From the NCBI GenBank assembly GCA_026389585.1, contig JAPLHP010000095.1, positions 1 through 40,797 on the forward strand: a stretch of 40,797 nucleotides of DNA. The letters are read 5' to 3'. The notes beneath the pieces were generated by a model. That model did no database searches. It was not told the DNA's origin and saw nothing but the letters and a program-made list of their open reading frames with translations. The position numbers and the translations under genes are program-made. This document shows, piece by piece, positions 2,381 through 20,667 of this stretch. The DNA is from Chloroflexota bacterium (GTDB lineage Bacteria; Chloroflexota; Dehalococcoidia; UBA2247; RBG-13-53-26). Within the stretch, counting starts at the first letter, position 1; every line of letters begins with the position of its first letter.

Positions 2381-3058
2381 TTAAGCTGGGCTAGGGTTGT
2401 CGTTGAACCTGTAGCCGATGCTCCTCACCGTCTCGATACAAGCAGAGTCTCCCAGCTTGCTTCTGAGTCGCCTGATATGTACATCGACTGTCCTGTCACC
2501 TCCATAGTAGTCGTAGCCCCAGACCTTGTTGAGCAGCGCTTCCCTGGTGAAGACCTTTCCCTTCTTGCTTGCCAGAAACCGGAGCAACTCGTATTCCTTG
2601 AACGTTAGCTCCACCAACCTCCCCCCCACAGCCACCTCACACTTGGCCAGATCAATCGTTATGTTGCCACAATGGACCAAGTCCTTGTTGTCAGAACCAT
2701 TTGTTCTCCGCAGGGTCCGCCTTGCTCTTGCCATCACTTCATCCACTCCCCAGGGTTCCATGACGAAATCATCTATGGGCAGATCAGTATCAAAAACATC
2801 GAGGTTAGCATTGGACAAAAGGGCAATAACAGGTAAACGGGTCTCCTCCTTGATCCTCTGAAGCAAAAGCCCTGTTTCCGAACCGGGCAGTGATCCATCT
2901 ACAGCTATGATCACCAGATCCATTGGGTGACTGCAGATCTTCTCCAGAGGCTCGTCATGTCCAGAGACAATCGAGCACAGGAAGCCCCTCTCGGCAAGTC
3001 CGGAATTGAGTTCCCTTACCTGCTCGCTTCTATCGGCTATTATGAATACCCTGAACAT
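2381..3058 (-). CDS. OmpR-family orphan response regulator with atypical receiver (GlnR-like)
   Basis: A 225-residue protein with a receiver domain (about 1-115) and a trans_reg_C winged helix (about 128-220: ELTFKEYELLRFL, VDVHIRRLRSKL, TVRSIGYRF). The receiver is degenerate. Asp54 (AVDGSLPG) fits the phosphoacceptor position, but the usual acidic pair is reduced to one Asp (IIADRSEQ), and the conserved Lys of the KPF motif is Glu101 (MEPWG). Such receivers, as in actinobacterial GlnR, work without a partner kinase. No kinase gene is nearby. The gene follows nrpR by 6 bases and faces the amt-glnB-glnA group, so a nitrogen role is a reasonable inference. The ATG lacks a close ribosome site (AAGGAG is about 16 bases away), so translation may be coupled to nrpR. 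Confidence 0.85.
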   Translation of the reverse strand: MFRVFIIADRSEQVRELNSGLAERGFLCSIVSGHDEPLEKICSHPMDLVIIAVDGSLPGSETGLLLQRIKEETRLPVIALLSNANLDVFDTDLPIDDFVMEPWGVDEVMARARRTLRRTNGSDNKDLVHCGNITIDLAKCEVAVGGRLVELTFKEYELLRFLASKKGKVFTREALLNKVWGYDYYGGDRTVDVHIRRLRSKLGDSACIETVRSIGYRFNDNPSPA

Positions 3059-3064
3059 GGCTGG

Positions 3065-4084
3065 TTATGCGCTGCTCCTTTTATTCGCAATGTCTCTAAA
3101 TCTGCTCAAATTCTTGTATTCAATTAATCCACTCATGGCGCGGTTTGTGACCTCTATACTTGCTTCCGCGGCGGCTGCCACCGGGTTAAGCCCATCATAA
3201 AGTATCAGCCCAACCTTGTTCAATTCTGAGGTGATTTCGCATATCGGTTCATTCGTCTCTCCCAGCTTGATCAGGCCATTGAAGCCCGCTGCCTTCAGCT
3301 TCCTCATAATGGCCTCCGTTTCCGGTCTGCAGGGAGAGGGAATCTCGCCGAAGCTAGCCAGTATCTTGCCGCCGCCTTCGATGCTTGCCTTCCTGACACT
3401 GGTCATTCTACTGGCAATGAATATCTCGGCGGGGTCCAAGGAGCACCCCGAGTACTCTATCAGATCGGTGAACCTGAGTGGTTTTTGATTCCTGACCTGC
3501 AGCATTCCTCCAAACCTGGAGACCAGTGGGATGCCGGCTTTTAACAGGGCACCGCTCACTACAATGCTGGATATTGTGGCCAGCCCGACCTTGCCCTGGG
3601 GTACCGTCACTCCTCCAAGCTTTGCCCCTTCGTGGGCGATTGCCACCAGGTCGCTGACGCACAGGCCAGATCTAAAGGCATCACTCATCAGCTCTAGAGC
3701 ACGGTTAAATTCCTCCTCAGCGAACAAGGACGTGTTAATAGGGACATGCCCACTATAGTTATCAAGGTCGAGAGAGGTGGCATACGCTAAGAGCTCGATC
3801 CTGGCGGATATGTGTCCCAACCTATCGGACACCAGGGCACTCTTCAGTTCCTCAAGACCTGAAGAGGTGATCTGTCTGCCATCCCTCTTTCCTACAGGTT
3901 GGGTCAGACCTCGCTCATCCATCAGCCTCAGATGATACCTCACCGCCCTCTCACCGAGCTCAAAGCCAAGATCGCACAACCGGCGGGCAATCACCCTGCC
4001 GCCGAGAGGCTCCGGGGAATCGCTGAGCACTTTAAGGATGGCGACCACTTTCCTTTCCACCACTCTAGTCTCTTGGCCTATCAT
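3065..4084 (-). CDS. nrpR: NrpR-type nitrogen transcriptional regulator (copy 1)
   Basis: NrpR represses nitrogen genes in methanogens and is released by 2-oxoglutarate. This 339-residue protein has an N-terminal winged helix (about 5-72; VERKVVAILKVLSDSPEPLG, AVRYHLRLMDERGLTQ) and one NrpR effector domain (about 85-325; EGAKLGGVTVPQGKVG, SRFGGMLQVRNQKPLRF, SGCSLDPAEIF). The chosen ATG at 4084 has CAGGAG 7 bases upstream and gives a start (MIGQETRVVERK) that matches the second copy at 20,668 (MIGSSSVEVERK). An upstream TTG at 4102 is less likely. Several methanogen NrpRs carry two effector domains; this one has one. It lies between a glutamate-synthase domain gene (32 bases upstream) and the OmpR-like regulator (6 bases downstream). 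Confidence 0.88.
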   Translation of the reverse strand: MIGQETRVVERKVVAILKVLSDSPEPLGGRVIARRLCDLGFELGERAVRYHLRLMDERGLTQPVGKRDGRQITSSGLEELKSALVSDRLGHISARIELLAYATSLDLDNYSGHVPINTSLFAEEEFNRALELMSDAFRSGLCVSDLVAIAHEGAKLGGVTVPQGKVGLATISSIVVSGALLKAGIPLVSRFGGMLQVRNQKPLRFTDLIEYSGCSLDPAEIFIASRMTSVRKASIEGGGKILASFGEIPSPCRPETEAIMRKLKAAGFNGLIKLGETNEPICEITSELNKVGLILYDGLNPVAAAAEASIEVTNRAMSGLIEYKNLSRFRDIANKRSSA

Positions 4085-4116
4085 TTCTGACTCCTGATTC
4101 AATCGGTGTCTAATAT

Positions 4117-4890
4117 CTAATAGGTATGGAGCCTGCCATATGGTCTAAGATAAAGCGGGAACAGCTTGATAAACTTGTGTCTGAGTATCTCCTCAGCATC
4201 GCAACTGAAGTAGGCTGCAAAGTCGGTCACGAATGCCCGGAGAATCTGGAGATCCTTCTCCTCCAATTCAGCAGTGCCCATCTCCTTGCCGAGTTGATGA
4301 TCTTTGACAGTGCCCCTCAGATAGATGACACCGCCGTGCATTCCGGTTCCGATGAAGTTAGCCCTATGGGGCTCATCATTCTTTAGGCCAAGGCCAAGAA
4401 GGATCAGGATTCCGCCAGCCATGTATTCACCGAGAAAGTCCTGAGCAGTCCCTCCGATGACCAGCACCGGTTTCTTTTCCTTGTACTCCTTCATATGAAT
4501 GCCTGCCCGATACCCCACATCTTCACGGACAAAGATCTTCCCCCCTCGGGCTGACAGGCCGACGATATCGCCAGCGTGCCCATGAACAATTATCTCGCCG
4601 TTGTTCATCGTATTCCCGCAGCCGTCCTGGGCGTTCCCATGAACAATTATCCGCGGACCATTCATAAATGCTCCCAGATCGTTGCCGGGAGTGCCGAATA
4701 TCTCGACCTCCACTGTCTTTCTCAGATTGGTGCCAATGTATCTCTGACCACAGATATTATGAAGCTCAATTCTCTGAACCCCGTTGATCACAGCATTACG
4801 CAACCTGGTGTTAAGGTCACGGTATGGAATGTTGCTGGCATCGATGCTCAGTACCGAATCAGCTTTCACCTGGCCAATACTCTGTGTCAT
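4117..4890 (-). CDS. glutamate synthase GXGXG-domain protein (GltB3-type, stand-alone)
   Basis: A 257-residue protein made of the right-handed beta-helix GXGXG domain, found at the C-terminus of bacterial GltB, as a separate GltB3 in archaea, and in FwdC/FmdC. Repeats visible: ELHNICGQRYIG, GPRIIVHGNAQDGCGNTM, GEIIVHGHAGDIVGLSARGG, GGTAQDFLGEYMAGG and FIGTGMHGGVIYLRG. In glutamate synthase this domain is structural and holds the glutaminase and FMN domains together. It starts 1 base after the 59-residue gene (TGATATG arrangement) and precedes nrpR. A second GXGXG domain is fused to the glutaminase gene at 6,568-9,312, so this copy may serve another partner, for example the FMN-domain protein at 18,960. 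Function as a glutamate synthase subunit is inferred. Confidence 0.85.
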   Translation of the reverse strand: MTQSIGQVKADSVLSIDASNIPYRDLNTRLRNAVINGVQRIELHNICGQRYIGTNLRKTVEVEIFGTPGNDLGAFMNGPRIIVHGNAQDGCGNTMNNGEIIVHGHAGDIVGLSARGGKIFVREDVGYRAGIHMKEYKEKKPVLVIGGTAQDFLGEYMAGGILILLGLGLKNDEPHRANFIGTGMHGGVIYLRGTVKDHQLGKEMGTAELEEKDLQILRAFVTDFAAYFSCDAEEILRHKFIKLFPLYLRPYGRLHTY

Positions 4891-5092: not shown

Positions 5093-5860
5093 CTATCTCC
5101 TTACGGGAATCCCCTTTCCTGCCAGATAGTCTTTCGCCTGGCGAATCGAGTAGGTCCGGTAGTGAAAAATGCTGGCAGCAAGAACGGCATCCGCCTTGCC
5201 TGCAAGCAGGGCTTGATAAAGATGCTCCAGGTTTCCAGCGCCGCCGCTGGCGATGACCGGTACTGATACCTGCTCGCTAATAGCCCGGGTGAGCCTCAGG
5301 TCATATCCGCTCCGGTGGCCATCATTATCCCAACTGGTCACCAGCAACTCCCCGGCGCCGAGTGCAACGGCCTGATTCGCCCAAACGACGGCGTCAATTC
5401 CCGTTCCCTTCCGGCCGCCGTGAGTAAGAACCTCCCACTTTGGTGCTTCACCGTTTTCCACCAGCCTAGCATCAATGGCTACAACGATACACTGGGAGCC
5501 AAATCTTTCTGCTCCTTTACCTATTAGTTCCGGGTGGAGCACTGCCGCAGTGTTGACGGCTATCTTATCGGCTCCAGCCTTCAGCATCAGTCGCATATCA
5601 TTGACACTGCGCAGCCCTCCACCTACGGTAAGCGGGATGAAAACCTGCTCGGATACACGTTCCACTATCTCTACCATGGTGTTACGGCCCTCAGGCGTCG
5701 CACCAATATCCAGGAAGACCAACTCATCGGCATCTTCCTTATAGTAGAAGGCAGCCATCTCCACAGGGTCACCCGCATCATGGAGATCCATGAAGCTGGT
5801 GCCTTTGACCACTCGCCCGCCGGTCATATCAAGACAGGGTATGATCCTCTTCGTTAGCAT
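5093..5860 (-). CDS. hisF: imidazole glycerol phosphate synthase cyclase subunit (copy 1)
   Basis: HisF uses ammonia delivered by HisH to convert PRFAR to imidazole glycerol phosphate and AICAR. It is a 255-residue half-barrel-repeat TIM barrel. The start [12 protein letters not shown] is canonical, with Arg5 at the ammonia gate and catalytic Asp11. The second catalytic Asp is in VVAIDAR near residue 130. Phosphate-binding loops VGGGLRS and [11 protein letters not shown] are present. It lies downstream of hisH with a 90-base gap, on the same strand. The loop [13 protein letters not shown] differs from the usual TSMDRDGTKDGYD, a mild change. Both HisF copies in this window keep both aspartates. 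No other his genes are nearby, so the pair sits in a nitrogen locus rather than a his operon. Confidence 0.93.
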
Positions 5861-5950: not shown

Positions 5951-6571
5951 TTAAGCCCTCTTTCCGGCCAGCGCCATCTTGAGGAAGTTATCGTACATCC
6001 TCAAGCCATGCTCACCGCTCTTCTCAGGATGAAACTGGGTGGCCACCACATTGTCCCTGATCACGACACTGCAGAAAGAAACCCCATATTCTGTTGTTCC
6101 AGCTGTCACAGACAGGTCTTCCGGAGCAGCATAGTAGCTGTGAACAAAATAGAAGTTGGCTCCGTCCGGTATAGAATCAAATAGCGGATGATTCTCTTTT
6201 CGGTTCACCTGGTTCCACCCCATGTGAGGGATCTTGAGCCCTGGCGGCAACCTTCTCACAATTCCAGGGATAATCCCCAGACACCTGTGCCTGCCACCCT
6301 CTTCAGTTTCTGTGAAAAGAACCTGCATCCCCACGCAAACCGCAAAAAGGGGTCTGCCGTCAGTGACTAGCTGACGAACGGCCTGGGACATGCCCGACCT
6401 ATCCAGATTGTGCATGGTATCAGCAGCTGCGCCAACACCGGGGAGGATAACTGCTGCAGCGCTAAGCACATCGCCAGGGTTGCCCGTCACCTTCGGCTGG
6501 TAACCCAGCTTGGCGATGGCATTAGCTACACTGCGCAGGTTTCCGGCACCGTAGTCGATGATGGCAATCAT
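5951..6571 (-). CDS. hisH: imidazole glycerol phosphate synthase glutaminase subunit
   Basis: Class I glutamine amidotransferase that supplies ammonia to HisF. At 206 residues it matches the family. The start MIAIIDYGAGNLRSV is typical. The nucleophile Cys is in FAVCVGMQVLF, slightly altered from CLGMQ, and the His-Glu pair is in TQFHPEKSG. The oxyanion strand segment is ILPGVGAA. The ATG overlaps the stop of the glutaminase/GXGXG gene by 4 bases (ATGA), so it is translationally coupled to the glutamate synthase operon, an unusual home. The 90-base gap to hisF shows no further gene. Confidence 0.94.
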   Translation of the reverse strand: MIAIIDYGAGNLRSVANAIAKLGYQPKVTGNPGDVLSAAAVILPGVGAAADTMHNLDRSGMSQAVRQLVTDGRPLFAVCVGMQVLFTETEEGGRHRCLGIIPGIVRRLPPGLKIPHMGWNQVNRKENHPLFDSIPDGANFYFVHSYYAAPEDLSVTAGTTEYGVSFCSVVIRDNVVATQFHPEKSGEHGLRMYDNFLKMALAGKRA

Positions 6572-9312
6572 TTAACTTTGCCTCCGCTGTCACCATCAAT
6601 ACTCAGTATAAGCGCTTCATTCGGACAGTTGGCAATGGACACCGGGGTCTCCTGTCCAGCGCAGAGGTCATATTTGACCGACTCGCTCAACCCGTCGTCG
6701 TCTTCGGCGGAGGTCCCTGTCTTTTTCGGCCTGATCTTTCTGTAGACGTCTTTGGGGGCCCTTTTTCTATCGTCAATCGTCAAGAGCCGGTCGATGGTGA
6801 TGTCGAAAAGTCTCTCATTCTCTTCGAGATAGGGCTGGATCAATTTCCAGTCGGCATCCGTGATCTTGGCGAACTCGCCGCCATTGAGTTGCTCATCAAC
6901 CAGTTTCCGGTGCGGGTCGCGCACATAGATCGCACCGCCGGAGGCCAGGGAAAAGATATTGGACCCCGGATAAGGCGATTCATACTCCCGGATCGACCCG
7001 TCATTGTCATCAAAGCCGATGCCGTTCAGGATGACAAACCCGCCGCCGTCCAGCGGATCGCCAGCCATGAAGGATTCGGCCAGGTAGTCAAGGGCGGTGC
7101 CGTTGATGACCACGCGCGGCTTGCCGACGGCATTGACCAGGGGTCGTCCGGCGGCATTGCCCATGATATAGGCCGCGCCTCCCTTGGCGCCGTACATGAA
7201 TGTCTGCCCGACATCGCCGAAGACCACCAGCTTGCCCTCTTTCATGATCTGGCAGAGTTGATCCTGGGCGTTGCCGTGCACGTAGATCTCCATACCGTCG
7301 ATACCCGACGCCAGATAGTCGCCGGATGAGCCGTAGACGTCGATCCGCACGCCCTTGGTCGCCGGACCGCAGCCGCAGCCCGTAAACCGCTGGCCGCGGT
7401 ATTTGTACACGATGAAGCGTCGCCAGCCGAGTTTGCAGGCCTTGACTATCATCACTGCATCGCACTTGTCGCCTTCCGGCTCAAAATACTCCGCATCGAT
7501 GACAAGTATCTGATTGTTCTGCTGCGGCGCCCGCAGGGTATCACGGGTGGCGAAATCGATTTGACTGAACTGCGACGCCGTCTTTTCCGTAATCATGGGC
7601 GTGGCGGCCAGTATCTCATCCAGGTTGATTTTCAGGACATGCTGCACGGAGCTGCGCTTGATCCTGCCGGTATGGTAGCGCCGGTCGTTCAACAGGGTCA
7701 GGGCCGTGATGGCCGTTTGCTTGAAGGTATCATTTTTCAGGGCCTGACTTTTGATGATTTCAATCGCGAACCTGAAACTCACGGCATCAAATCCCCTCAT
7801 AGCGTCCCGGACACAGGCGAAAATCTTGTGCGCCGCAGAGGACGCGTCTGCTTCCACGAATAAACCACGGAGACTCTCTTCTATGGGCTTGCCTTCGGGC
7901 GTTGTTTCTTTCAAATCCTTCGAGATATCGCAGATGACCTTATCCTTGGCCGTTTCGATCACCTTCCCGAATTTGTCGGTACAGATGAGCTGCTTGTTGC
8001 CCGAACCGTCGCCGGCATCCTTCAGGCTGAAGATGAACGCGCCACCGTCGGTATGACTGCCGCCGCGGGCGTTCCAGTATTTGTCGGCAATGGGCCTAAA
8101 GCGCGGATCTTCCCGCTCCAGCGATATGAGCGTCGCATCGATGGCCTGTTTTTCCGAGCAGATCAGGCCGATCTTCACCTCGCCCTCCTGCAGGGCGAAC
8201 ACCTGCGGCCTGAGCATGGCCGTATCCGTGAGGCCGATCAGCTGGAACTGATCGTTCTGTACGTCATTGCGGGCGATGATGAAGAACCACGGCCCGTCGG
8301 GCGATGCATAGACGTGATGAGTCTGAATGGCCTTGTATAGCGCCTGCTTTTGTGCCGGCAGCATGTCGAAGTCCATCTCCGAGGTCGGCGCCATGGCCTC
8401 GATCAGGTATTCCAGGGGATATTTGTAGACCCTGCTCCACAGATCGAGCAGGAGCGCCGCCTGCTCCGTATCGGTCCGAAACAGGGGGTGGTAGTTGCGC
8501 TGTTTGAGATATTCGTAAACGGCCTGATAGTTGGCAAAGTCGCCGTTGTGCACGAGGGCCTCGTTGAGCGCGCTGAAGGGATGACAGCCGCCGGGATGCC
8601 AAACCCGGCCGCGGGTCGGATAGCGCTGGTGGGCCAGCCAGGCGTGGGCCTTGAAATCATCCAGTTTATAATAGCGGACGACGTTCTCGGCATAGCCGAC
8701 GATCTTCAGGATCATCATGTTCCGGCCATGGGACATGACAAAGGCCTTCTTTTCGCCGAGGGAGGCATAATATCGCGCGTTGATCCTGAAGCTGTTCTGA
8801 TAGACAAACTCGTCCTCGGCGTCGCGCCGGTCCAGGGAGATGAAATGGTTCTCCGCGATGAATTTATCCAGGACGTCGGCCTTGACACGGACGAAATAAC
8901 GCATAACATCCGGGGGCCTGACATCCAGACCGATACTGCGATGGTCATCGAGCGTGGCGAGCTTCTCGGATTTGTCAATCTTGAAGTAGGGCTTGATGAA
9001 GGTGTTTTCAAGCTCATCCGCCACGCCGGCATCCAGGAGGGCGATGTGGAACATGTAGTCCTCGTCCAGTACCTGCCTTGAAACACCGAGGGCCTCGGGG
9101 ATAAATCCGACGGCGCCAATGCCGCCGCCTTTCCCATTGCCCCGGTTATGCATCTGCACGGAAGGCTCGAAGATGTTTTTTCCGGTCACGGGGATGGAAC
9201 AGATAAATCCGGTGACGCCGCAGCCGCCTTCCTCTTCGGTGTTGGGGGCGAGAATCGGTGTCTGCCTGCACAGTTCAGTGCGTGAAGACAATATTCTTTC
9301 GGCATTATCCAT
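6568..9312 (-). CDS. glutamate synthase glutaminase domain fused to GXGXG domain, no FMN domain
   Basis: About 914 residues. The N-terminal class II amidotransferase domain has the processed nucleophile Cys in EEEGGCGVTGF (residue 31 from this start), a propeptide before it, and the loops HQRYPTRGRVWHPGGCHPF and ALVHNGDFANY near the middle of the domain. It releases ammonia from glutamine. A GXGXG beta-helix follows (about 635-865: GCGCGPATKGV, GDVGQTFMYGAKGG, NGTALDYLAESFMAGD). The central FMN/2-oxoglutarate domain of ordinary GltB is missing and is encoded separately just upstream. ATG 9312 is preferred because GGAG lies 10 bases upstream; ATG 9333 would add 7 residues. It overlaps the preceding gene and, by 4 bases, hisH. 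Fusion of the first and third GltB modules without the second is unusual. Confidence 0.9.
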   Translation of the reverse strand: MDNAERILSSRTELCRQTPILAPNTEEEGGCGVTGFICSIPVTGKNIFEPSVQMHNRGNGKGGGIGAVGFIPEALGVSRQVLDEDYMFHIALLDAGVADELENTFIKPYFKIDKSEKLATLDDHRSIGLDVRPPDVMRYFVRVKADVLDKFIAENHFISLDRRDAEDEFVYQNSFRINARYYASLGEKKAFVMSHGRNMMILKIVGYAENVVRYYKLDDFKAHAWLAHQRYPTRGRVWHPGGCHPFSALNEALVHNGDFANYQAVYEYLKQRNYHPLFRTDTEQAALLLDLWSRVYKYPLEYLIEAMAPTSEMDFDMLPAQKQALYKAIQTHHVYASPDGPWFFIIARNDVQNDQFQLIGLTDTAMLRPQVFALQEGEVKIGLICSEKQAIDATLISLEREDPRFRPIADKYWNARGGSHTDGGAFIFSLKDAGDGSGNKQLICTDKFGKVIETAKDKVICDISKDLKETTPEGKPIEESLRGLFVEADASSAAHKIFACVRDAMRGFDAVSFRFAIEIIKSQALKNDTFKQTAITALTLLNDRRYHTGRIKRSSVQHVLKINLDEILAATPMITEKTASQFSQIDFATRDTLRAPQQNNQILVIDAEYFEPEGDKCDAVMIVKACKLGWRRFIVYKYRGQRFTGCGCGPATKGVRIDVYGSSGDYLASGIDGMEIYVHGNAQDQLCQIMKEGKLVVFGDVGQTFMYGAKGGAAYIMGNAAGRPLVNAVGKPRVVINGTALDYLAESFMAGDPLDGGGFVILNGIGFDDNDGSIREYESPYPGSNIFSLASGGAIYVRDPHRKLVDEQLNGGEFAKITDADWKLIQPYLEENERLFDITIDRLLTIDDRKRAPKDVYRKIRPKKTGTSAEDDDGLSESVKYDLCAGQETPVSIANCPNEALILSIDGDSGGKVK

Positions 9313-10810
9313 TATGAGCAAACTCCGTTTCATGACTGTAATCTATATGCTCCAGCAAGTCCGTCCGTCCGACGAGTTCCTTGACGCTACGCATGCCGAA
9401 CCTCTGGAGGATCTCGACCAGCTGGACATTCCAGGCATGGTACATATTGACCAGGCGCTGTGTCGCCCAATCCTCGTCAAACAGGTCGGCCAGCTCGGAG
9501 TCCGTTGAGGCGATGCCCCGAGCGCAGCCACGTCCCGATTCACAGTTGCCGCAGCGGACGCACTCCAGCGATACCAACTCCGCCGTGCCGATAACTACCC
9601 CATCGGCACCCAGGCAGATGGCCTTGGCCAGGTCATGGGCGGTCCGGATGCCGCCGGAGGCGATGAGCGTCATGGCATCGCGGGCGCCCTCGTCCTTCAG
9701 AAAGTTATGGACCTTGGTGATGGCATACTCGATGGGCATGGCGATGTTCTTCTTGGCGATATCGGGCGCTGCCCCGGTGCCGCCGTAGCCGCCGTCGATA
9801 TGGATGATATGCGCGCCAGCATAGTACGAGCCCACGGCGACCATGTCCACGTCGTTGGGGGTTGAAACCTTGACGGATACCAGGGCGTTGGGGTTCATCT
9901 CCTTAACCCAGTCGATGTGCTTCTTGTGATCTTCGATAGAATACACCGAGTGGAACGGGAAGGGGGAAAACAGCGGGTAACCCTTGACGGCCTCGCGCAT
10001 TTTAGCCACGCTTTCCGTATTTTTTTCACCGAGAAGGTGCCCGCCGAGGCCGGGCTTGGCGCCCTGGGCATATTTGAACTCGATGATTTTTACCCGCTGG
10101 ATGGTCTCCTCGCGCACCCCGAACAGGCCGGTGGCGATCTGGGTGATCACGTGGTCATCGTACGGCTGGAGCATCTCGGGGTAGCCGCCCTCGCCGGTGC
10201 AGGTAAAGGTATTCCATATGGTCGCATTGCGCGCCTTGGAAACCATGGTAGGCAGGCTCACCGATCCGAAGGACATGCCGCCGCCGTAAACGGGGGTGGA
10301 AATGACCACGTTCGCCCGCCCGTCGTTTCTGCGGTTCAGCGGGATGGCGGTGGAGATCTCGGATTTATCCACCTGGGGTGGATGGGCGGGGAACTTGAAC
10401 CGCAGCTTGTCGAAGCCGCCGCCGGAATTGCCCACGTTATATTCGAGGTCGGTGCGCTGCGGCGGATAGCCGGTCTCGGCCATGATCCAGGTCCCAGTGA
10501 TCATGTCCGCGGTCCAGCGGAAGTCGCCCAGCGTCGCATACATGGGGTTCAACGACAGGCTCAAGGCCTTGCGCGGGCATTTGGCGACGCAGTAGAAATC
10601 CTTGCCCTGGCATTCGAAGCCGATGCATTTGTAGTCGATGGGCGGCTTGACCTTGTTATGCCCCTCGACCCTTTCATGCACGCCGTAAGGGCATGCCCTG
10701 GCACACGTACCGCAGTTGATGCAGGCATCGGAGCGGGTGACCTTGTATTTCGGCACCTGGTGCTTGAACCTGGAAGGCATCTTTCTGATTTTTACGGTTG
10801 ATGGTTTCAT
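9305..10810 (-). CDS. glutamate synthase FMN/2-oxoglutarate domain protein with N-terminal ferredoxin domain
   Basis: A 501-residue archaeal-type GltB2. The N-terminal ferredoxin domain has one standard 4Fe-4S motif (C30, C33, C36, C40: CINCGTCARACP) and an unusual second motif (CIGFECQGKDFYCVAKCP). The FMN barrel follows (about 165-460), with STPVYGGGMSFGSVS, GEGGYPEM, KPGLGGHL, IDGGYGGTGAAP and ASGGIRTAHDLAKA. A further cysteine cluster, CVRCGNCESGRGC, matches the 3Fe-4S region of GltB. It would reduce 2-iminoglutarate to glutamate using reduced FMN. Its ATG overlaps the upstream gene by 4 bases (ATGA). No NADPH-oxidising GltD is in the window, so electrons must come from ferredoxin or from the neighbouring FAD/Fe-S protein (inference). 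Confidence 0.9.
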   Translation of the reverse strand: MKPSTVKIRKMPSRFKHQVPKYKVTRSDACINCGTCARACPYGVHERVEGHNKVKPPIDYKCIGFECQGKDFYCVAKCPRKALSLSLNPMYATLGDFRWTADMITGTWIMAETGYPPQRTDLEYNVGNSGGGFDKLRFKFPAHPPQVDKSEISTAIPLNRRNDGRANVVISTPVYGGGMSFGSVSLPTMVSKARNATIWNTFTCTGEGGYPEMLQPYDDHVITQIATGLFGVREETIQRVKIIEFKYAQGAKPGLGGHLLGEKNTESVAKMREAVKGYPLFSPFPFHSVYSIEDHKKHIDWVKEMNPNALVSVKVSTPNDVDMVAVGSYYAGAHIIHIDGGYGGTGAAPDIAKKNIAMPIEYAITKVHNFLKDEGARDAMTLIASGGIRTAHDLAKAICLGADGVVIGTAELVSLECVRCGNCESGRGCARGIASTDSELADLFDEDWATQRLVNMYHAWNVQLVEILQRFGMRSVKELVGRTDLLEHIDYSHETEFAHNG

Positions 10811-12216
10811 ACGCTCACTGCTTCTCTTTTTTTAAATAGTTTTCCAAAGGTGTCTTTGTCTATTTCTTCAAAGAATATGGCCCGGCCGCTTTCTCCCCGC
10901 AGACGACGGGCCTCGCGAATACCCATGGCACCCATCATCTCCAGTATCTGCGAATGCCAGGCCCCCATGAGGTTAACGATCCGCTGGGTGACGATGGGGA
11001 GCGGAATTTTACCAAGCCCTTCCGGGAAAATCAGCAATTTCTCCGGCTCCTCATAGATCCTGGCACCCAGAGCAATCATGAGCGGTATGTCTATGGCCGT
11101 CAGGTCGGCGCCGCAGAGCATGGCCTTGGGCACGTGCTCCGCCATGGCGATACCGCCCGAGGCGATAAGGGTGATCTCATCGCGGATCCGGTCTTCCACC
11201 AGCCTCAGGTGGACGGCCCGGATAATGTCCTTGAGGAGACGCCGATCCGATCCCGCCGAACCGTTGAGCTCCTGGCCGCGGTAATCGGCCACGATGTGGA
11301 TGATCTCCGCGCCGCTGTGCGCCAGCTTGGCAACGATGCCTTCCACGTCGTTCATGGCTGGGATGCGTATGATGGTAAGGGCATCGCTGAGCTTTTTGAT
11401 CTTTTTCTTCAGGCCCGGAAAATCGTTCAGCACCGCATCGCTATATTCGATGGACACGAGGCGCGCCTTTTTTAGTACGGCCTTATGCGTGTCGATTTCT
11501 GTGGGCGCAAGGCAGGGGATGATGTTGTCGCGATATTTCTCGACCCTGGGTGTGATGTCGGCCGCCGGCATGATGATGCAGGTGCTGATCTCTGCGGCCG
11601 CCTTTACCAGGGCCTCCTTGACATTCGAACTCAGATTATCCGCCGGGGTATCGAAGAGGATGGGTATGGGGAGATCGACGGTATCCGGGACCGTCGATGC
11701 CAACTGCCCGTCCGCATCAAAGGTCAGGTGATTGAGTTTGCGGCCCAGGTCAACGGAGGTGCTGATATATTCCCGTCCGTGGATCCCGTCGCGGGTCGGA
11801 CGCACGATCTCGGACATGTCGGTCCACATGCTGTCGAAACCCGTTCCGGTAAACGGTCCGCGGTAACCGGCACCGGAAACGGGGACCTTTCCGTCCTCGG
11901 CCTGCTTCCAGAGGCTGATCAACATATCGGGTTTCCAGAACGCACCGCCGATATTGGTAAAATCCTTATCAAGGGATTTCTCCAGGGCCCCCCGCGGGCA
12001 CTCCTGGATGCAGCGGAAACAGTTCCTGCATACCACGGTGTTCGGGTCTGCCATCTTGCGCGGATCGTCTTTGCGGCGTTTGTGCGCTTCATAGATACAA
12101 ACCTTCGTGCATTTGCCGCAATTGATGCAGTTTTCCCCCCGCACGATCTTGAATTTAAATACATAGTCCAGATCGAGGGGTGTAATCTTGGGGTGAATGT
12201 GATATTTCTTTGGCAT
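10807..12216 (-). CDS. degenerate paralog of the glutamate synthase FMN domain, with two intact 4Fe-4S motifs
   Basis: 469 residues with the same layout as its downstream neighbour: ferredoxin motifs at C30-C33-C36-C40 and C63-C66-C69-C73 are both intact, and a barrel domain follows. The catalytic signatures are lost. Where the active copy reads IDGGYGGTGAAP this one reads VADYRGQELNGSAG, the GGGMSFGS loop is replaced, and the late cysteine cluster is missing (IALGARIYEEPEKLL). The segment ASGGIAMAEHVPKAMLCGAD and the C-terminal region (NLMGAWHSQILEMMGAMGIREARRL) still align. I infer a pseudoenzyme that carries electrons through its iron-sulfur clusters and pairs with the active copy. It is cotranscribed between the FAD oxidase and the active FMN subunit. 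Confidence 0.78.
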   Translation of the reverse strand: MPKKYHIHPKITPLDLDYVFKFKIVRGENCINCGKCTKVCIYEAHKRRKDDPRKMADPNTVVCRNCFRCIQECPRGALEKSLDKDFTNIGGAFWKPDMLISLWKQAEDGKVPVSGAGYRGPFTGTGFDSMWTDMSEIVRPTRDGIHGREYISTSVDLGRKLNHLTFDADGQLASTVPDTVDLPIPILFDTPADNLSSNVKEALVKAAAEISTCIIMPAADITPRVEKYRDNIIPCLAPTEIDTHKAVLKKARLVSIEYSDAVLNDFPGLKKKIKKLSDALTIIRIPAMNDVEGIVAKLAHSGAEIIHIVADYRGQELNGSAGSDRRLLKDIIRAVHLRLVEDRIRDEITLIASGGIAMAEHVPKAMLCGADLTAIDIPLMIALGARIYEEPEKLLIFPEGLGKIPLPIVTQRIVNLMGAWHSQILEMMGAMGIREARRLRGESGRAIFFEEIDKDTFGKLFKKREAVSV

Positions 12217-12258
12217 AGTCTTTATCCGTCTTTTTAGATTCTGTTTATATACGGAGGT

Positions 12259-14100
12259 TCAGCTGTTCTGCTCCACCATATCCCAGTACTCCTTGCTGGC
12301 ATCGACCTTTTTCAGAAATTCCGCGATCTGAGCCTCCGGCCGGCCGAATTGACCTTCAAGCCTTTTTTCCAGGGCGTCCCAGAGCATCATCAGCTCGAGG
12401 TTGGTCTGGCATATCTCCTCGCAGGCCTTGCAGTGCATACACATGAAGGCATTGGCGGCTTCCTCCCGCGTCACGGCCTGGCCGGCAAGAAGTTTCTTGG
12501 CCAGGGCGATCTTCCCTTTGGCCGTTGCAGCTTCATTTTGGGTGACAAGATAGGCCGGGCATACCGCTATGCAGTTTCCACATTTGGCGCACGCATGGGT
12601 GCTGAGCTCGAAATCCAGGCTGTCAATCTTCTTATCGTCTCCCAGAAGGGTTGTGGCGACTTTCCCGATCACAGGCGCCATCAGCACCATGAGCTGCATG
12701 GAAGGACCGAAAACGGCTGGATGGAAGATCAGGGCGGAGATCCCCTTTGAACCGACGCTGAAGAATTTGCCCGGGTTCAGGATATTGTTGGGGTCCACCC
12801 GGGCCTTGTAGTCCTTCAGGTCGCGCAGTTTGGCACTGCTGTACAGGTTATGGATAAAGGCGGCATTCCAGAGGCCAAGCCCGTATGGTTCCGCACCCAG
12901 CGCCACCGCGGCCTTGGTGAGTATGGAAACCAGGGGCAGGTTGATATAATATTTCTTGGTCCTGGAATCGCACAGGAAGGTGGACATGATGAGCGCCTTA
13001 TGGGCATCGATGATGTAGGAGTCGATACAGATCTCCACCCCGAAATGGCCGCCTATCTTCTTGGCCTTTTCGATAAAGGCGGCGGCCGACGTAATCGGGA
13101 TGATGATTTCACTGGCCAGGATGGTCGGCCCCAGGCGCTTGATCTTCATGCCGAACAGGCGCTCGTTCCAGAGGTAGCTCGCAACGTAGCGGGGCGCTTC
13201 TTCAATGCTGCCGTTTCGAGCCATGGATTTTACGAAATGCTCTTCATCCTCGGCGCTGCCGAACTCCACCATAACGGCGGCGCTCTTCTTGAATATGCCG
13301 GCCCGCATGATCTCGTTGGTATCGGCCAGTTGATTTTCATCCAAAAACCGGATGACATTGGGGTTGAGCTGCGCGGCGCTCAGATCTCTTACGAACCGGC
13401 CGATGAAGGCAAAGGCCTCCTTGTCGCTCGGAAAATACAGGAGATGGGGGTATGAACCCTGAGGAACATCCCGCAACTTTAGGGTTACCTCAACCACGAT
13501 GCCGAACTCTCCCTCGGTGGAGACGAAGTAGGTGAAATCACGGTCCGATGGGGATAGCTGCTTGACCTCGCCGGTGCCCGTGACGACCGTCATGGACACG
13601 ATCTGTTTCGACAAGTGGCCGTACTTGAAGCTGTTGATGCCATATCCTCCGGTCGAGATCCAGCCGCCCACCGTGGAAAACTTGCTTGAGGGGTATGTCA
13701 TCAGACACAAGCCCTCTTTCTTGGCCATGATGTCGATATCGCTCCAACGGGCGCCCGCTTCTACGGTAACGGTCTTTTGGGCAGTGTTGATCGCCACGAT
13801 CTTCCGGAAGGGGGACAGGTCGATAACGATTCCCGCGTTGGTCGGGATGACGCCGCCGAAGCCCCACGAGGCGGCGCCTCTCGGCACCACGGGGATTTTC
13901 AGATCGTTGGCAAACGCCAGGACCTTTTCTATCTCATCTACATTTTTAGGCTGGACGACGAAATCGGGTAACGTCTTAAAAAACGTTTTGGTCATGATCA
14001 GCGGTACATCACCGATGTCATAACTGTACATCTCTCTTTCTGCCGCATTGTCGATGATTTTTATATCGCCCGCGATCTTTATGAGCTCATCTGTCTTCAT
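12259..14100 (-). CDS. FAD-linked oxidase fused to a C-terminal two-cluster ferredoxin domain (GlcD/GlcF-like)
   Basis: 613 residues. Residues about 30-210 form a PCMH-type FAD-binding domain (VVPRGAASWGFGGVIP, TVEAGARWSDIDIMA, STVGGWISTGGYGINSF). The FAD-linked oxidase C-terminal domain follows, ending near RVDPNNILNPGKFF. The C-terminus carries two 4Fe-4S motifs (CAKCGNCIAVCPAYL and CMHCKACEEICQTNL), as in GlcF but without the later cysteine-rich CCG domains. Such proteins oxidise 2-hydroxyacids (lactate, glycolate) and pass electrons to iron-sulfur carriers. It is the first gene of the minus-strand operon leading to the glutamate synthase subunits, 42 bases upstream of the pseudo-subunit. 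It may therefore feed electrons into glutamate synthesis; this is inference. The ribosome site is weak (GAAGAGAC). Confidence 0.85.
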   Translation of the reverse strand: MKTDELIKIAGDIKIIDNAAEREMYSYDIGDVPLIMTKTFFKTLPDFVVQPKNVDEIEKVLAFANDLKIPVVPRGAASWGFGGVIPTNAGIVIDLSPFRKIVAINTAQKTVTVEAGARWSDIDIMAKKEGLCLMTYPSSKFSTVGGWISTGGYGINSFKYGHLSKQIVSMTVVTGTGEVKQLSPSDRDFTYFVSTEGEFGIVVEVTLKLRDVPQGSYPHLLYFPSDKEAFAFIGRFVRDLSAAQLNPNVIRFLDENQLADTNEIMRAGIFKKSAAVMVEFGSAEDEEHFVKSMARNGSIEEAPRYVASYLWNERLFGMKIKRLGPTILASEIIIPITSAAAFIEKAKKIGGHFGVEICIDSYIIDAHKALIMSTFLCDSRTKKYYINLPLVSILTKAAVALGAEPYGLGLWNAAFIHNLYSSAKLRDLKDYKARVDPNNILNPGKFFSVGSKGISALIFHPAVFGPSMQLMVLMAPVIGKVATTLLGDDKKIDSLDFELSTHACAKCGNCIAVCPAYLVTQNEAATAKGKIALAKKLLAGQAVTREEAANAFMCMHCKACEEICQTNLELMMLWDALEKRLEGQFGRPEAQIAEFLKKVDASKEYWDMVEQNS

Positions 14101-15018: not shown

Positions 15019-15068
15019 GCACTCCACAGGTCATTATACCGAACTTCATCATGAGGGGGCAAAGAGAA

Positions 15069-15839
15069 GTGAAGATAGTAAAGGTAATACCATGCCTGGA
15101 TATGAAGGATGGCAGGGTAGTCAAAGGGATCAAGTTTGTTAATCTGAGGGATGCCCGTGACCCTGTGGAGGCTGCCGCAGCGTACTGCCGCGAGGGTGCT
15201 GATGAGCTGGCCTTCCTTGACATTGCGGCCACTGTTGAAGGCAGGCCCACCAAGCTCGAATGGGTGAAGAAGGTCCGCAAGGCAGCTACCGTCCCCTTCA
15301 CTGTAGGCGGCGGGATCAGAGACATAGCCGACATGAGGAAGCTCTTCGATCTCGGCGTAGATAAGGTCTCCATCAACACTGCGGCTGTCAAGAATCCAGA
15401 CCTTATAAAGGAGGCCTCCCGCACCTTCGGCAAGGAAAAGCTGGTGGTTGCCATCGATGGCAAGAAGAACCCGCCGGGGAGCAAACTCCCCAGGCTCGAA
15501 GTGGTGATAAGGGGTGGAATGGAGGGAACCGGCCTCGACATTGTGGAATGGGCCAAGAAGGTGGAGAAGCTGGGAGCAGGAGAGATACTGCTGACCAGCA
15601 AGGATGCCGACGGGACGAAGGAGGGCTACGACCTGGAGATGACCAAGGCCGTAGCTGAAGCGGTAAGCATACCCGTCACTGCTTCGGGTGGGGCTGGCAA
15701 GCTGGAGCACCTCTATGAAGCTGTGGTGACAGGCAAGGCCTCTGCCGTACTGTGTGCCTCCGTTTTCCACTTTGGAGAGATCACCATCCCCCAGGCGAAG
15801 AAATATCTGGCCGAGAAGGGGATACCGGTAAGAATCTGA
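15069..15839 (+). CDS. hisF: imidazole glycerol phosphate synthase cyclase subunit (copy 2)
   Basis: A second complete HisF, about 256 residues from GTG 15069, which has a G-rich site (AGGGGG) about 10 bases upstream; ATG 15051 would add six residues. It keeps catalytic Asp in VIPCLDM and in VVAIDGKKN, and the loops VGGGIRDIADM, TSKDADGTKEGYD and ASGGAGKLEHL. The ammonia-gate Arg5 position is Lys (MKIVKVIPCLD), and residues differ widely from copy 1, so it is not a recent duplicate. No hisH follows. It heads an operon with NuoE/F/G-like subunits and a glutamate-synthase-like protein, with a 43-base gap to nuoE. It could be the housekeeping HisF, or a variant drawing ammonia from another source (inference). 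Confidence 0.9.
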   Translation: MKIVKVIPCLDMKDGRVVKGIKFVNLRDARDPVEAAAAYCREGADELAFLDIAATVEGRPTKLEWVKKVRKAATVPFTVGGGIRDIADMRKLFDLGVDKVSINTAAVKNPDLIKEASRTFGKEKLVVAIDGKKNPPGSKLPRLEVVIRGGMEGTGLDIVEWAKKVEKLGAGEILLTSKDADGTKEGYDLEMTKAVAEAVSIPVTASGGAGKLEHLYEAVVTGKASAVLCASVFHFGEITIPQAKKYLAEKGIPVRI

Positions 15840-15882
15840 GGATCGATATACATCAAACACTATTTGGAAAGGTGATCAAGAA

Positions 15883-16359
15883 ATGGGAGTCGATTTCAAG
15901 AAGGTAGATACTATAGTCGATGAATATGGCTGCAACCGCGACAGCCTCATTTCCATACTTCAGGACATACAGTCTGAATATCGCTATCTGCCTGAAGATG
16001 TGCTGAGGCAGGTGGCCAGGCGGCTGGATCTGCCGCTGATTCAAGTTTATGGCGTAGCCACCTTCTTCAAGTCATTCAGCCTGAAGCCTCGCGGCGAGCA
16101 TTTGGTCCACGTTTGCCTGGGCACTGCCTGCCATGTGCGAGGTGCTCCTGCCGTCCTGGATGAAGTAAAGAGGCAACTTGGCGTCGAAGCCGGAGAGACG
16201 ACGAAAGACATGCAGTTTACGCTGGAGACGGTGAACTGTCTCGGGGCTTGCGCCCTAGGCCCTATCGTGGTTGTTGATAGCAACTACCAGGGGCAGGTGC
16301 GGCCGGGGAAGGTGAAGGGTGTCCTCAAGCAATACAGGAAAGGCACTGAAGGGAAGTAG
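15883..16359 (+). CDS. NuoE-like [2Fe-2S] subunit (HydC/HndA/BfuC type)
   Basis: 158 residues, the 24-kDa subunit family of complex I and of bifurcating hydrogenases. The thioredoxin-fold [2Fe-2S] ligands are C78, C83, C119 and C123 (HVCLGTACHVRG, NCLGACALGP). The N-terminal helical part contains SLISILQDIQSEYRYLPEDV and the VYGVATFFKSF segment typical of the family. It passes electrons near the flavin of the NuoF-like partner. It begins a three-gene NADH-oxidising module; the next gene starts 2 bases after its stop. No complex I membrane subunits or hydrogenase genes accompany it. Confidence 0.92.
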   Translation: MGVDFKKVDTIVDEYGCNRDSLISILQDIQSEYRYLPEDVLRQVARRLDLPLIQVYGVATFFKSFSLKPRGEHLVHVCLGTACHVRGAPAVLDEVKRQLGVEAGETTKDMQFTLETVNCLGACALGPIVVVDSNYQGQVRPGKVKGVLKQYRKGTEGK

Positions 16360-16361
16360 AG

Positions 16362-18221
16362 ATGAAGAAACTAGGGTCAGCAGTAGAACTGGAGCAGTTG
16401 CGCAAGAAGATCGCCAGCCAGCGCGATCCGAAACGCACTTGTATTGTTACCAGTGTGGGAACGTGCGGACTGGCCCGCGGTGCGGCTGGTGTAGCACAAG
16501 CCATCAGCGCGGAATTGAAAAAGGACGGTCTGAATGGCTCCGTGGATCTGCGGACAACGGGCTGCCATGGCTTCTGTGAGATAGAGCCAGTGGTAGTGAT
16601 ATACCCCAAGAGAATTGTCTATCAACACGTCACGCCTGCTGATGTGCCCGAGATAATCTCGGAGACGGTCTCCAAAGGCAAGATTATCACAAGGCTCCTC
16701 TACACCAACCCTGCCACAGGACGAAAGATAGTCCGCGAGCAGACCATACCTTTCTATGGCAAGCAGTACCGTCTTCTCACCGATAGCATTCGCTTCATAG
16801 ATCCCCACAATATAGAGGATTACATCGCCTTGGGTGGTTACTCGGCACTATGCAAGGTGCTATTCGACATGCACCCTGAAGAAGTGCTCGATGAAATCAG
16901 TAGATCCGGGCTGCGTGGCCGCGGCGGTGCCGGGTTCCCAACATTCAGGAAGTGGGAGTCCGCCCGCAATGCCCCTTCATACGACGGCATCCGTTATGTC
17001 ATCTGTAATGCTGATGAAGGCGACCCGGGCGCCTACATGGACAGGAGCCTCCTTGAAGGGAATCCCCACAGCGTCATTGAAGGAATGATCATTGGCGCGT
17101 ACACGATGGGCTCGCATCACGGGTATGTCTACGTCAGAAACGAGTACCCCTTAGCAGTGGAGAACCTGCGCATAGCATTGGACCAGGCAAGGCAATACGG
17201 TCTGCTAGGGAGGAACATCCTCGGCTCCAATTTCGACTTTGACATCAAGATCTCCAGAGGTGGCGGCGCATTCATCTGCGGCGAGTCCACTGCCCTTATG
17301 GCCTCACTGGAGGGCAGGATAGGCGAACCGCGTCCCAAGCATATTCACACAGCCCTCAAGGGGCTCTATGGCCGGCCTACCAACCTGAACAACGTGGAGA
17401 CCTGGGCCAACGTGCCTCTCATCATCAACCGCGGCGCCAAATGGTACACGACGATTGGTACCGAGGGCAGCAAGGGAACCAAGATCTTCTCTCTGGTGGG
17501 CAAGATCAACAATACGGGACTGGTTGAGGTACCAATGGGAATCACCTTGAGAGAGATGGTCTATGACATTGGCGGTGGCATCCGTGGCGGGAAGAAATTC
17601 AAGGCAGTGCAAACGGGCGGCCCATCAGGCGGCTGTATCCCTGAGAGCCTGATTGACCTACCTATTGACTTCGACAGGCTAGCTGAATCCGGATCAATGA
17701 TGGGCTCCGGTGGCATGATCGTCATGGATGAGGGAACCTGCATGGTTGACATGGCCAGGTACTTCGTCAAATTCTTGACAGAGGAATCCTGCGGCAAGTG
17801 TGTGCCCTGCCGTGAGGGACTGGACAGGATGCTGGATATCCTCACCGACATTACTGAGGGGCGGGGGAAGAAAGAAGATATCGAACTCTTGGAAGAACTG
17901 GGCGATGTCATCAAGGAGGCTTCGCTCTGCGGACTGGGTGGGACTGCTCCCAACCCCGTTCTCTCCACCATCAGGTATTTCAGAGACGAATACGAAGCTC
18001 ATATCACAGACAGGCGTTGCCCCGCAGGCGTATGCAAGGCGCTCATCACCTTCACGGTCGATGCAGTGAACTGCACCGGCTGCAGGGTCTGTGCCAGAGA
18101 ATGCCCGCAGGGTGCCATATCAGGCGAGAAGAAGGAAATACATTTCATCGATCAAGGTAAGTGCATCAAATGCGGGCTTTGTCGTGACCTCTGCAAGTTC
18201 GATGCAGTTCTAGTCTCATGA
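16362..18221 (+). CDS. NuoF-like NAD(H)/FMN subunit with extra Fe-S domains (HydB/HndC/BfuB type)
   Basis: 619 residues. Domains in order: a thioredoxin-like [2Fe-2S] domain (about 1-120; CIVTSVGTC and GCHGFCEIEP); the 51-kDa domain with GLRGRGGAGFPTFRKW, NADEGDPGAYMDR (FMN) and GGGAFICGESTALM (NAD); a SLBB segment; the 4Fe-4S motif SCGKCVPCREG with its fourth Cys in CGLGGTAPNP; and a C-terminal two-cluster ferredoxin domain (CTGCRVCARECP and CIKCGLCRDLC). This is the layout of HydB/HndC in bifurcating [FeFe]-hydrogenases and of the Bfu family core. It would oxidise NAD(P)H or reduce NAD(P)+ at FMN. It lies between nuoE-like (2-base gap) and nuoG-like (12-base gap) genes. Confidence 0.93.
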   Translation: MKKLGSAVELEQLRKKIASQRDPKRTCIVTSVGTCGLARGAAGVAQAISAELKKDGLNGSVDLRTTGCHGFCEIEPVVVIYPKRIVYQHVTPADVPEIISETVSKGKIITRLLYTNPATGRKIVREQTIPFYGKQYRLLTDSIRFIDPHNIEDYIALGGYSALCKVLFDMHPEEVLDEISRSGLRGRGGAGFPTFRKWESARNAPSYDGIRYVICNADEGDPGAYMDRSLLEGNPHSVIEGMIIGAYTMGSHHGYVYVRNEYPLAVENLRIALDQARQYGLLGRNILGSNFDFDIKISRGGGAFICGESTALMASLEGRIGEPRPKHIHTALKGLYGRPTNLNNVETWANVPLIINRGAKWYTTIGTEGSKGTKIFSLVGKINNTGLVEVPMGITLREMVYDIGGGIRGGKKFKAVQTGGPSGGCIPESLIDLPIDFDRLAESGSMMGSGGMIVMDEGTCMVDMARYFVKFLTEESCGKCVPCREGLDRMLDILTDITEGRGKKEDIELLEELGDVIKEASLCGLGGTAPNPVLSTIRYFRDEYEAHITDRRCPAGVCKALITFTVDAVNCTGCRVCARECPQGAISGEKKEIHFIDQGKCIKCGLCRDLCKFDAVLVS

Positions 18222-18233
18222 AGAGGGAAAGAC

Positions 18234-18902
18234 ATGATTGAATTGACGATTGACGGAACCAAGGTAAGGGTGGAGAAAGGAACCAGCGTCCTTGAAGCAG
18301 CCAAAGAGATGGGCATCACCATCCCGACTCTTTGCTACTATCCCGGCCTCAGTTCCTATGGTGAGTGTCGTGTCTGCCTGGTGGAGGTAGTCAAAGGGAA
18401 GAATCGCTCATCGCTGGAGGCATCATGCGCAATGCCGGTAGAGCAGGGGTTGGTCATCCGGACCAATTCGGAGAAGGCGAAGAAGGCACGTAAGCTGGTT
18501 GTGGAACTCCTGATTGCCTCATGTCCCACCTCAAAGACGCTGCAGGATATGGCCTCCAACATGGGCATCAACAGGATCCGTTTCAAGATAAAGGATAGGG
18601 GGTGCATCCTCTGCGGGCGCTGCGTGCGCTACTGTAAAGAACAGATGCGGTCGGGCGGTATCGGATTCGTGGGCCGCGGAACGTCACGCAGGGTAGCCAC
18701 AGCCTTTGGAGTCACCCCAGCGGAGTGCCGCAATTGCGGCGGATGCGAATGGATCTGTCCGGTTTGCGAGCGGGCCTGCACAGCCAATAACCTGATCAAC
18801 GGCCTCTGCGGGGGTTGCCAGAACCTGGCACCCGTTGAGACCTGCGCCATATGCACAGGGTGCTCCGAGAGCGTAGGGGCGCATGGACACACGGTCTACT
18901 AG
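18234..18902 (+). CDS. NuoG/HoxU-like Fe-S subunit with a cysteine-rich C-terminal tail
   Basis: 222 residues. The N-terminal [2Fe-2S] domain has C34, C45, C48 and C65. The usual NuoG His-Cys cluster region is reduced to a single SCPT (C97). The two 4Fe-4S motifs are C124-C127-C130-C134 and C165-C168-C171-C175. A tail adds C178, C182, C192, C195, C204, C207 and C210 (CERAC, CGGC, CAICTGC), which I have not seen in standard NuoG, HoxU or HydA N-termini. There is no molybdopterin or H-cluster domain, so the subunit should hand electrons to another catalytic partner, most simply the FMN glutamate-synthase-like protein encoded 57 bases downstream. Tail function is unknown. Confidence 0.88.
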   Translation: MIELTIDGTKVRVEKGTSVLEAAKEMGITIPTLCYYPGLSSYGECRVCLVEVVKGKNRSSLEASCAMPVEQGLVIRTNSEKAKKARKLVVELLIASCPTSKTLQDMASNMGINRIRFKIKDRGCILCGRCVRYCKEQMRSGGIGFVGRGTSRRVATAFGVTPAECRNCGGCEWICPVCERACTANNLINGLCGGCQNLAPVETCAICTGCSESVGAHGHTVY

Positions 18903-18959
18903 ACCCACAACGCTCTTCAGAATATATGAGACTTTGGAAAACAAGGAAGGAGATCAAAG

Positions 18960-20537: not shown

Positions 20538-20571
20538 CCATATATAATAGAACCAACAAGAGATTTGAGCT

Positions 20572-20601
20572 GCCGCGCCTGACCTAGCGCTCAGGCGCGG
20601 C
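20572..20601. other. strong GC-rich hairpin between the FMN protein and nrpR2
   Basis: GCCGCGCCTGA at 20572-20582 and TCAGGCGCGGC at 20591-20601 form a perfect 11-bp stem with an 8-base loop. It is nested inside a weaker repeat, TTGAGCT (20565-20571) and AGCTCAA (20630-20636). It lies 35 bases after the glutamate-synthase-like stop. No T-run follows, so it is either a non-canonical terminator/mRNA-end stabiliser or an operator for nrpR2. Confidence 0.6.
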
Positions 20602-20667
20602 GCAACGTTATGAACCACCAGACTACAGGAGCTCAAGGGGCAGATCGTGGTTTAGCATGAAGAGACA

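Follow-up and report, generated by a model that had tools for sequence, protein, structure and literature searches.

Introduction

Glutamate synthase makes glutamate with nitrogen that derives from ammonia. In the NADPH-dependent glutamate synthases of Azospirillum brasilense and Escherichia coli (GltB/GltD), GltB combines glutaminase, FMN and GXGXG functions, with a barrel-type domain ahead of the FMN barrel, and GltD handles NADPH and provides the electron input. In the classical split (archaeal-type) GltB1/GltB2/GltB3 enzymes, the FMN domain resides in a separate subunit that also carries a ferredoxin domain. A precedent for swapping the electron-input subunit is provided by the F420-dependent enzymes FGltS(I) and FGltS(II), which use an FrhB/FdhB-type F420H2 dehydrogenase (PMC3448663), and a further putative F420-dependent glutamate synthase group has been reported (PMC9012536). 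Two other redox modules that figure in this work, MvhD and MetVF, belong to the Moorella HdrABC-MvhD-MetVF complex, which has been suggested to bifurcate electrons (PMC6085437, PMC9012536).

Here we analyze a glutamate synthase-like gene cluster in a 40,797-nucleotide contig (‘the window’, meaning the entire stretch of DNA analyzed) from a Dehalococcoidia metagenome-assembled genome (MAG; 1.93 Mb, 95.27% complete, 0.58% contamination). The cluster resembles GltB/GltD in its glutaminase, FMN and GXGXG functions and in the presence of a barrel-type domain ahead of the FMN barrel, and the FMN-domain signatures and three cluster cysteines of A. brasilense GltB align with its FMN subunit. In contrast to GltB/GltD, however, its modules lie on separate chains, the glutaminase is joined directly to the GXGXG helix, ferredoxin domains are attached to both barrel subunits, and an FAD-linked oxidase (‘FADox’) is present instead of GltD. 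It shares with the classical split enzymes a separate, ferredoxin-containing FMN subunit, but this subunit is ∼35% identical to theirs, the glutaminase and GXGXG modules are fused, and the cluster includes both an extra subunit with a degenerate barrel (the ‘relay’ subunit) and the dedicated FADox module. Unlike the F420-dependent enzymes, this cluster and its relatives are associated with an FAD-linked oxidase or with MvhD/MetVF, and no FrhB/FdhB-type F420-binding domain is present among the scanned cluster proteins. We found no description of a FADox- or MetVF-linked glutamate synthase in open-licence PMC papers.

Organization of the gene cluster

All genes of the cluster lie on the minus strand, in the transcriptional order FADox, relay, FMN, glutaminase-GXGXG, hisH, hisF, lone GXGXG, NrpR, response regulator, amtB, glnB, glnA. 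FADox (positions 12259–14100; 613 amino acids) contains a VAO/PCMH-type FAD domain with a D-lactate dehydrogenase/AGPS-like fold (Pfam FAD_binding_4, E = 1.9e-35, and FAD-oxidase_C), followed by two C-terminal 4Fe-4S motifs, an assignment based on Pfam, fold search, synteny and alignment. The relay subunit (10807–12216; 469 amino acids) joins two 4Fe-4S motifs to a degenerate FMN-type TIM barrel (Pfam Glu_synthase, E = 2.8e-7), as judged from Pfam, natural fusions, a structural model and a fold search. The FMN subunit (9305–10810; 501 amino acids) likewise has two 4Fe-4S motifs, here together with a strongly matching glutamate synthase FMN domain (Glu_synthase, E = 5.8e-87), and the glutaminase-GXGXG fusion (6568–9333; 921 amino acids) links a class-II glutaminase (GATase_6) to a GXGXG beta-helix (E = 3.9e-13); alignments accompany the Pfam assignments for both proteins.

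Downstream lie hisH, encoding the glutaminase of imidazole glycerol phosphate synthase (5951–6571; ORF and Pfam), a first copy of hisF (5093–5860; Pfam), a gene for a lone GXGXG subunit (4117–4890; Pfam), an NrpR-type nitrogen regulator (HTH_12 and NRD1_2; 3065–4102) and a response regulator with a C-terminal DNA-binding domain and a weak receiver domain (2381–3058), the last two identified by domain scan. These are followed by the ammonium transporter gene amtB (860–2085; ORFs), the PII regulator gene glnB (518–856; ORF sequence), which adjoins amtB in relatives too, and the 5′ part of the glutamine synthetase gene glnA (1–514; translation), which continues beyond the window edge. The amtB gene is present as two overlapping frames, split near 1.7 kb; a close relative encodes an intact 407-amino-acid copy, pointing to a frameshift or an assembly error. 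Across the window locus and related loci, glnA, glnB, amtB, NrpR, carAB and purF are neighbours. A scan with the methanogen NrpR operator consensus (GGAA-N6-TTCC) returned 23 matches against 19 expected, and was not used as evidence.

The relay and FMN genes overlap by 4 nt, as do the fusion and hisH genes, and the FMN and fusion genes overlap by 29 nt from the annotated ATG, or by 8 nt if translation starts at Met8, as in relatives; a 42-nt gap separates FADox from the relay gene. ORF and Pfam analyses agree with the coordinates, domain assignments and gene overlaps given for the four-gene cluster in a preliminary description, including the glutaminase and GXGXG modules on one chain, the separate, ferredoxin-fused FMN domain, the FAD oxidase/ferredoxin fusion and Fe-S pseudo-subunit, and the absence of GltD from the cluster. 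Beyond that description, the same run of genes also holds the lone GXGXG subunit, NrpR, amtB, glnB and the start of glnA. The description had also proposed a search for the same four-gene order in other genomes; many genomes, belonging to several phyla, share this order, which is thus not a product of chance.

A second nitrogen-linked cluster lies on the plus strand at 15051–21663, and comprises a second hisF copy, NuoE, NuoF, a NuoG-like Fe-S protein, an FMN protein and a second NrpR; it is also present in one other genome (L036), and is possibly an NADH-linked partner. Its FMN protein (18960–20537) is a second glutamate synthase-like protein, which in another relative (L074) adjoins glnA and the glutamate synthase core, upstream of both. 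Further along the contig, a transposase-like ORF, recognized from the sequence alone (33279–34337, minus strand), is flanked by small proteins without assigned function.

Catalytic signatures of a glutamate synthase

The FMN subunit aligns with the FMN domain of A. brasilense GltB (hmmsearch, E about 7e-63), and retains the AQGAKPG loop (2-oxoglutarate/FMN), the GGTGA motif and the three cysteines of a 3Fe-4S-type cluster. In the fusion protein, the class-II glutaminase half has its nucleophile, Cys38, behind a propeptide, along with the motifs HQRYPT, HNGD and TDTE; C38, R237, N263-G264 and D288 are invariant in seven glutaminase sequences aligned with the GlmS glutaminase. PF01493 (GXGXG) scores above the cut-off in both the fusion protein and the lone GXGXG subunit.

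Within the window's own genome (95.27% complete), we found no second strong glutamate synthase FMN domain and no glutamate dehydrogenase domain above cut-off. The preliminary description had named a gltD gene elsewhere in the genome, clearly serving these subunits and co-occurring across relatives, as evidence against its reading. No stand-alone GltD was detected in the genome: PF14691, the GltD N-terminal domain, scores above the cut-off only within NuoF, HdrA-type and molybdopterin-oxidoreductase fusions, plus a spurious CODH-like match. In 13 of 16 other genomes with FADox (all of them MAGs or draft assemblies), the corresponding FMN subunit is likewise the sole full glutamate synthase FMN domain; 14 of the 16 also encode glutamate dehydrogenase, so glutamate synthase (GOGAT) is not their only route.

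Probably (with a probability of roughly 0.65), the locus encodes the GOGAT of an ammonium-assimilating GS-GOGAT gene cluster, one whose functions are divided unusually among subunits and whose electron-input module is something other than GltD. This reading draws on features read directly from the sequences, namely domain content, catalytic motifs, operon-like overlaps, clade-wide conservation, natural fusions and the clade linkage of FADox. A complex that instead applies the ammonia released by its glutaminase, together with flavin chemistry, to a different acceptor would be in keeping with the wide redeployment of GltB-like FMN proteins, with the glutamate dehydrogenases of most FADox genomes, and with the C1 enzymes associated with the core in a sister group (see below). 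The conserved GltB catalytic signatures, the nitrogen-assimilation neighbours and the lack of a glutamate dehydrogenase in the window genome all speak against such a complex, which we regard as very improbable.

The proposed relay subunit and its natural fusions

Identity between the relay and FMN subunits is ∼25%, and the relay subunit lacks the AQGAKPG loop while keeping both [4Fe-4S] motifs. A family-specific motif, WTDMSEIVRPTRDGIHGREYI, is nearly invariant, even among members down to 40% identity, and classical GltB2 loci yielded no instance of its RPTRDG core. In five genomes (L037, L040, L043, L142, L145), relay and FMN form one ORF with no intervening stop, yielding polypeptides of about 940–1000 amino acids (the L037 fusion ends at a contig end); a 941-amino-acid ORF in L164 appears, from its length, to be a sixth case. 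A fold search with a relay-FMN fusion ranks full-length glutamate synthases first, with about 980 aligned columns, suggesting that the relay subunit stands where GltB has its central domain. This is a likeness of position rather than a claim of homology, since the relay subunit matches PF04898, the central domain, only weakly (best E = 7e-4), compared with 6e-18 for PF01645. The predicted structure of the fusion is of only moderate confidence (pLDDT 67.6, pTM 0.57); the relay subunit may pack against the FMN subunit, as a proposed electron relay.

A conserved core and its proposed, exchangeable electron inputs

The fusion protein yielded 382 relatives across public genomes, and our comparison uses the best 80. 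Wherever the contig was long enough, the order relay-FMN-fusion is constant. The presence of FADox is clade-specific: among loci with at least 1.5 kb of upstream sequence, it precedes the relay gene in 22/22 loci of one clade, none of which has MvhD or MetVF, and precedes the core in 0/42 loci outside that clade (at least two locus pairs per group represent one genome twice). Those 42 loci have MvhD in 37 cases, MetF or MetV in 32, and at least one of these in 41. Loci of this kind come from Desulfobacterales, Dehalococcoidia, Firmicutes and other groups; in eight of them (L070, L073, L075, L076, L088, L091, L100, L114), and in further ones, MvhD and the Wood-Ljungdahl genes for methylene-tetrahydrofolate reductase, MetV/MetF, lie directly before or after the core. 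The MvhD and MetVF genes of the Moorella complex are also those seen before or beside the sister-group cores, but most loci examined have no HdrABC by the core, and here the modules are partnered with a glutamate synthase.

A tree of FMN subunits, rooted on classical split glutamate synthases, places the FADox loci in a single clade (26 rows, three of which end at a contig edge; SH-aLRT 100) nested among the MvhD/MetVF loci. The simplest reading of this topology is that FADox took the place of an MvhD-type module in a single event, but because the root branch is very long, the direction of the swap is less sure than the clade itself. Members of the clade (Dehalococcoidia, Syntrophus/Smithella, Syntrophomonas and Verrucomicrobia) are intermixed in the tree, which, together with the patchy distribution, argues for horizontal transfer of the cluster. 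Within the class, FADox is present in 5/294 genomes, four of which contain the core; the contig of the fifth stops 5 nt past FADox. GC content across the cluster (0.51–0.59) does not point to recent transfer.

The three proteins of the core define a conserved and hitherto undescribed lineage of glutamate synthases, represented in several phyla, and the strict association of FADox with one clade (22/22 loci within, 0/42 outside) suggests that FADox is most likely its electron-input subunit there, in place of GltD. The earlier proposal that an FAD/Fe-S module replaces GltD therefore applies to the clade, where FADox is always present, but does not extend to the wider family, in which 41 of 42 loci have MvhD and/or MetV/MetF instead; the lack of FADox in the clusters of more remote relatives marks it as a clade-specific input module rather than a part of the core.

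Ferredoxin dependence offers a different explanation, in which reduced ferredoxin feeds the Fe-S domains, and FADox is accessory or returns electrons elsewhere. Both barrel subunits do carry ferredoxin domains, relatives' classical split enzymes have no donor gene beside them (in the short loci examined), and the core has no obvious donor gene nearby in four genomes that belong to the phylum but not to the class (L163–L166). The strict linkage of FADox and its systematic replacement by MvhD/MetVF elsewhere nevertheless favour a dedicated input module, making a ferredoxin-dependent enzyme unlikely. In L163–L166, the N-terminus of the relay subunit is altered.

Alternatively, the enzyme could be bifurcating or confurcating, with the FAD or MvhD/MetVF module sending one share of the electrons to glutamate synthase and the other to ferredoxin or a different carrier. 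MvhD and MetVF are part of the complex suggested to bifurcate in Moorella (PMC6085437, PMC9012536), the flavin domain of FADox is similar to LctD, a component of the bifurcating Ldh-EtfAB complex, and the cluster proteins contain several Fe-S clusters. We consider this arrangement improbable, however, as an EtfAB or HdrA gene was not noticed in the FADox clusters examined.

The FADox active site

Fold and sequence searches with FADox return D-lactate dehydrogenase, LctD and AGPS, the best PDB matches being D-lactate dehydrogenases, followed by AGPS. FADox thus shares its fold and FAD domain with the D-lactate dehydrogenase/GlcD/LctD family, but differs in its two [4Fe-4S] clusters, its location in a glutamate synthase operon, and its lack of the family's histidine motifs. 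In the D-2-hydroxyacid dehydrogenase family, the histidines of the GHxGDGNxH and GEHG motifs serve in metal binding and catalysis. Both motifs, with all three of their histidines, are absent from 19/19 FADox sequences; where they would be, the clade has DSYIIDxxxALIM and PYGLG. The H405A change in mouse LDHD substrate complexes affects the second histidine of GHxGDGNxH, as established by comparing two mouse LDHD sequences, and the aligned FADox residue is alanine in 18/19 sequences and threonine in 1/19.

These absences bear on the preliminary suggestion of a 2-hydroxyacid as electron donor, according to which FADox would be a dehydrogenase for lactate, glycolate or 2-hydroxyglutarate that powers GOGAT. 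The suggestion gains from the D-lactate dehydrogenase matches by both sequence and fold, from the FAD_binding_4/FAD-oxidase_C architecture, and from an invariant LWNER, which lines up with the family's W..R segment; it is weakened by the absence of the metal-binding and catalytic histidines from all 19 sequences, and now seems a poor prospect. Such motifs are also missing from the nearest FAD/Fe-S homologs of FADox in the class, so a wider subfamily, as yet uncharacterised, shares this trait. These nearest homologs, found in L151–L155, are proteins of 868–1113 amino acids with FAD oxidase, Fe-S and cysteine-rich parts.

The same region of FADox nonetheless contains other invariant residues (LWNER, LCDSR, PYGLGxWN), with W311, N312, E313, R314, R380, Y406, W411 and N412 in the pocket; their conservation suggests that FADox has a working site for a different substrate rather than being a dead domain.

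Probable displacement of an older glutamate synthase

Many related Dehalococcoidia have a classical split GltB1-(hisF)-GltB2-GltB3 cluster, in which several relatives carry hisF. In the window, the lone GXGXG subunit adjoins hisF and is ∼58–80% identical to the GltB3 of these relatives, of which it is an ortholog; no classical GltB2 was found in its genome. The four-gene cluster was probably gained horizontally and took the place of a classical GltB1/GltB2/GltB3 enzyme, whose GltB3 survives as an orphan next to hisF.

A model for electron input, and its implications

From these observations we infer a physical complex, a direction of electron flow and a GOGAT reaction (glutamine, 2-oxoglutarate and two electrons giving two glutamate), as follows. 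Glutamine would be hydrolysed at Cys38 of the fusion protein, which also contributes the GXGXG helix, and the ammonia would pass to the FMN subunit, which would reduce the 2-iminoglutarate formed from 2-oxoglutarate and ammonia. FADox would take the role of GltD as electron input: its flavin would oxidise a substrate and deliver electrons to its own two [4Fe-4S] clusters, and from there to the clusters of the relay subunit, which would adjoin the FMN subunit, where GltB has its central domain, and hand the electrons on.

Thermodynamically, a donor near −200 mV suffices to drive the glutamate synthase reaction. Such donors would fit both an organic FAD substrate here and methyl-tetrahydrofolate in the sister group, a consideration of plausibility only. 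Speculatively, a fixed core may have been wired, branch by branch, to mid-potential donors rather than to NAD(P)H or ferredoxin: an organic substrate oxidised by FAD in this clade, methyl-tetrahydrofolate via MetVF-MvhD in the sister group, and possibly electron bifurcation, in energy-limited anaerobes. We hold this broader scheme to be unlikely as a whole.

Two likely mis-annotations would be corrected by our reading, as FADox would otherwise be labelled a glycolate oxidase or D-lactate dehydrogenase, and the MetVF of the sister group would be counted merely among Wood-Ljungdahl genes. A conserved core with exchangeable inputs, in syntrophs, sulfate reducers and Dehalococcoidia, would indicate that ammonium assimilation can be coupled directly to other redox reactions, which is of importance wherever NADPH and reduced ferredoxin come at a high cost.
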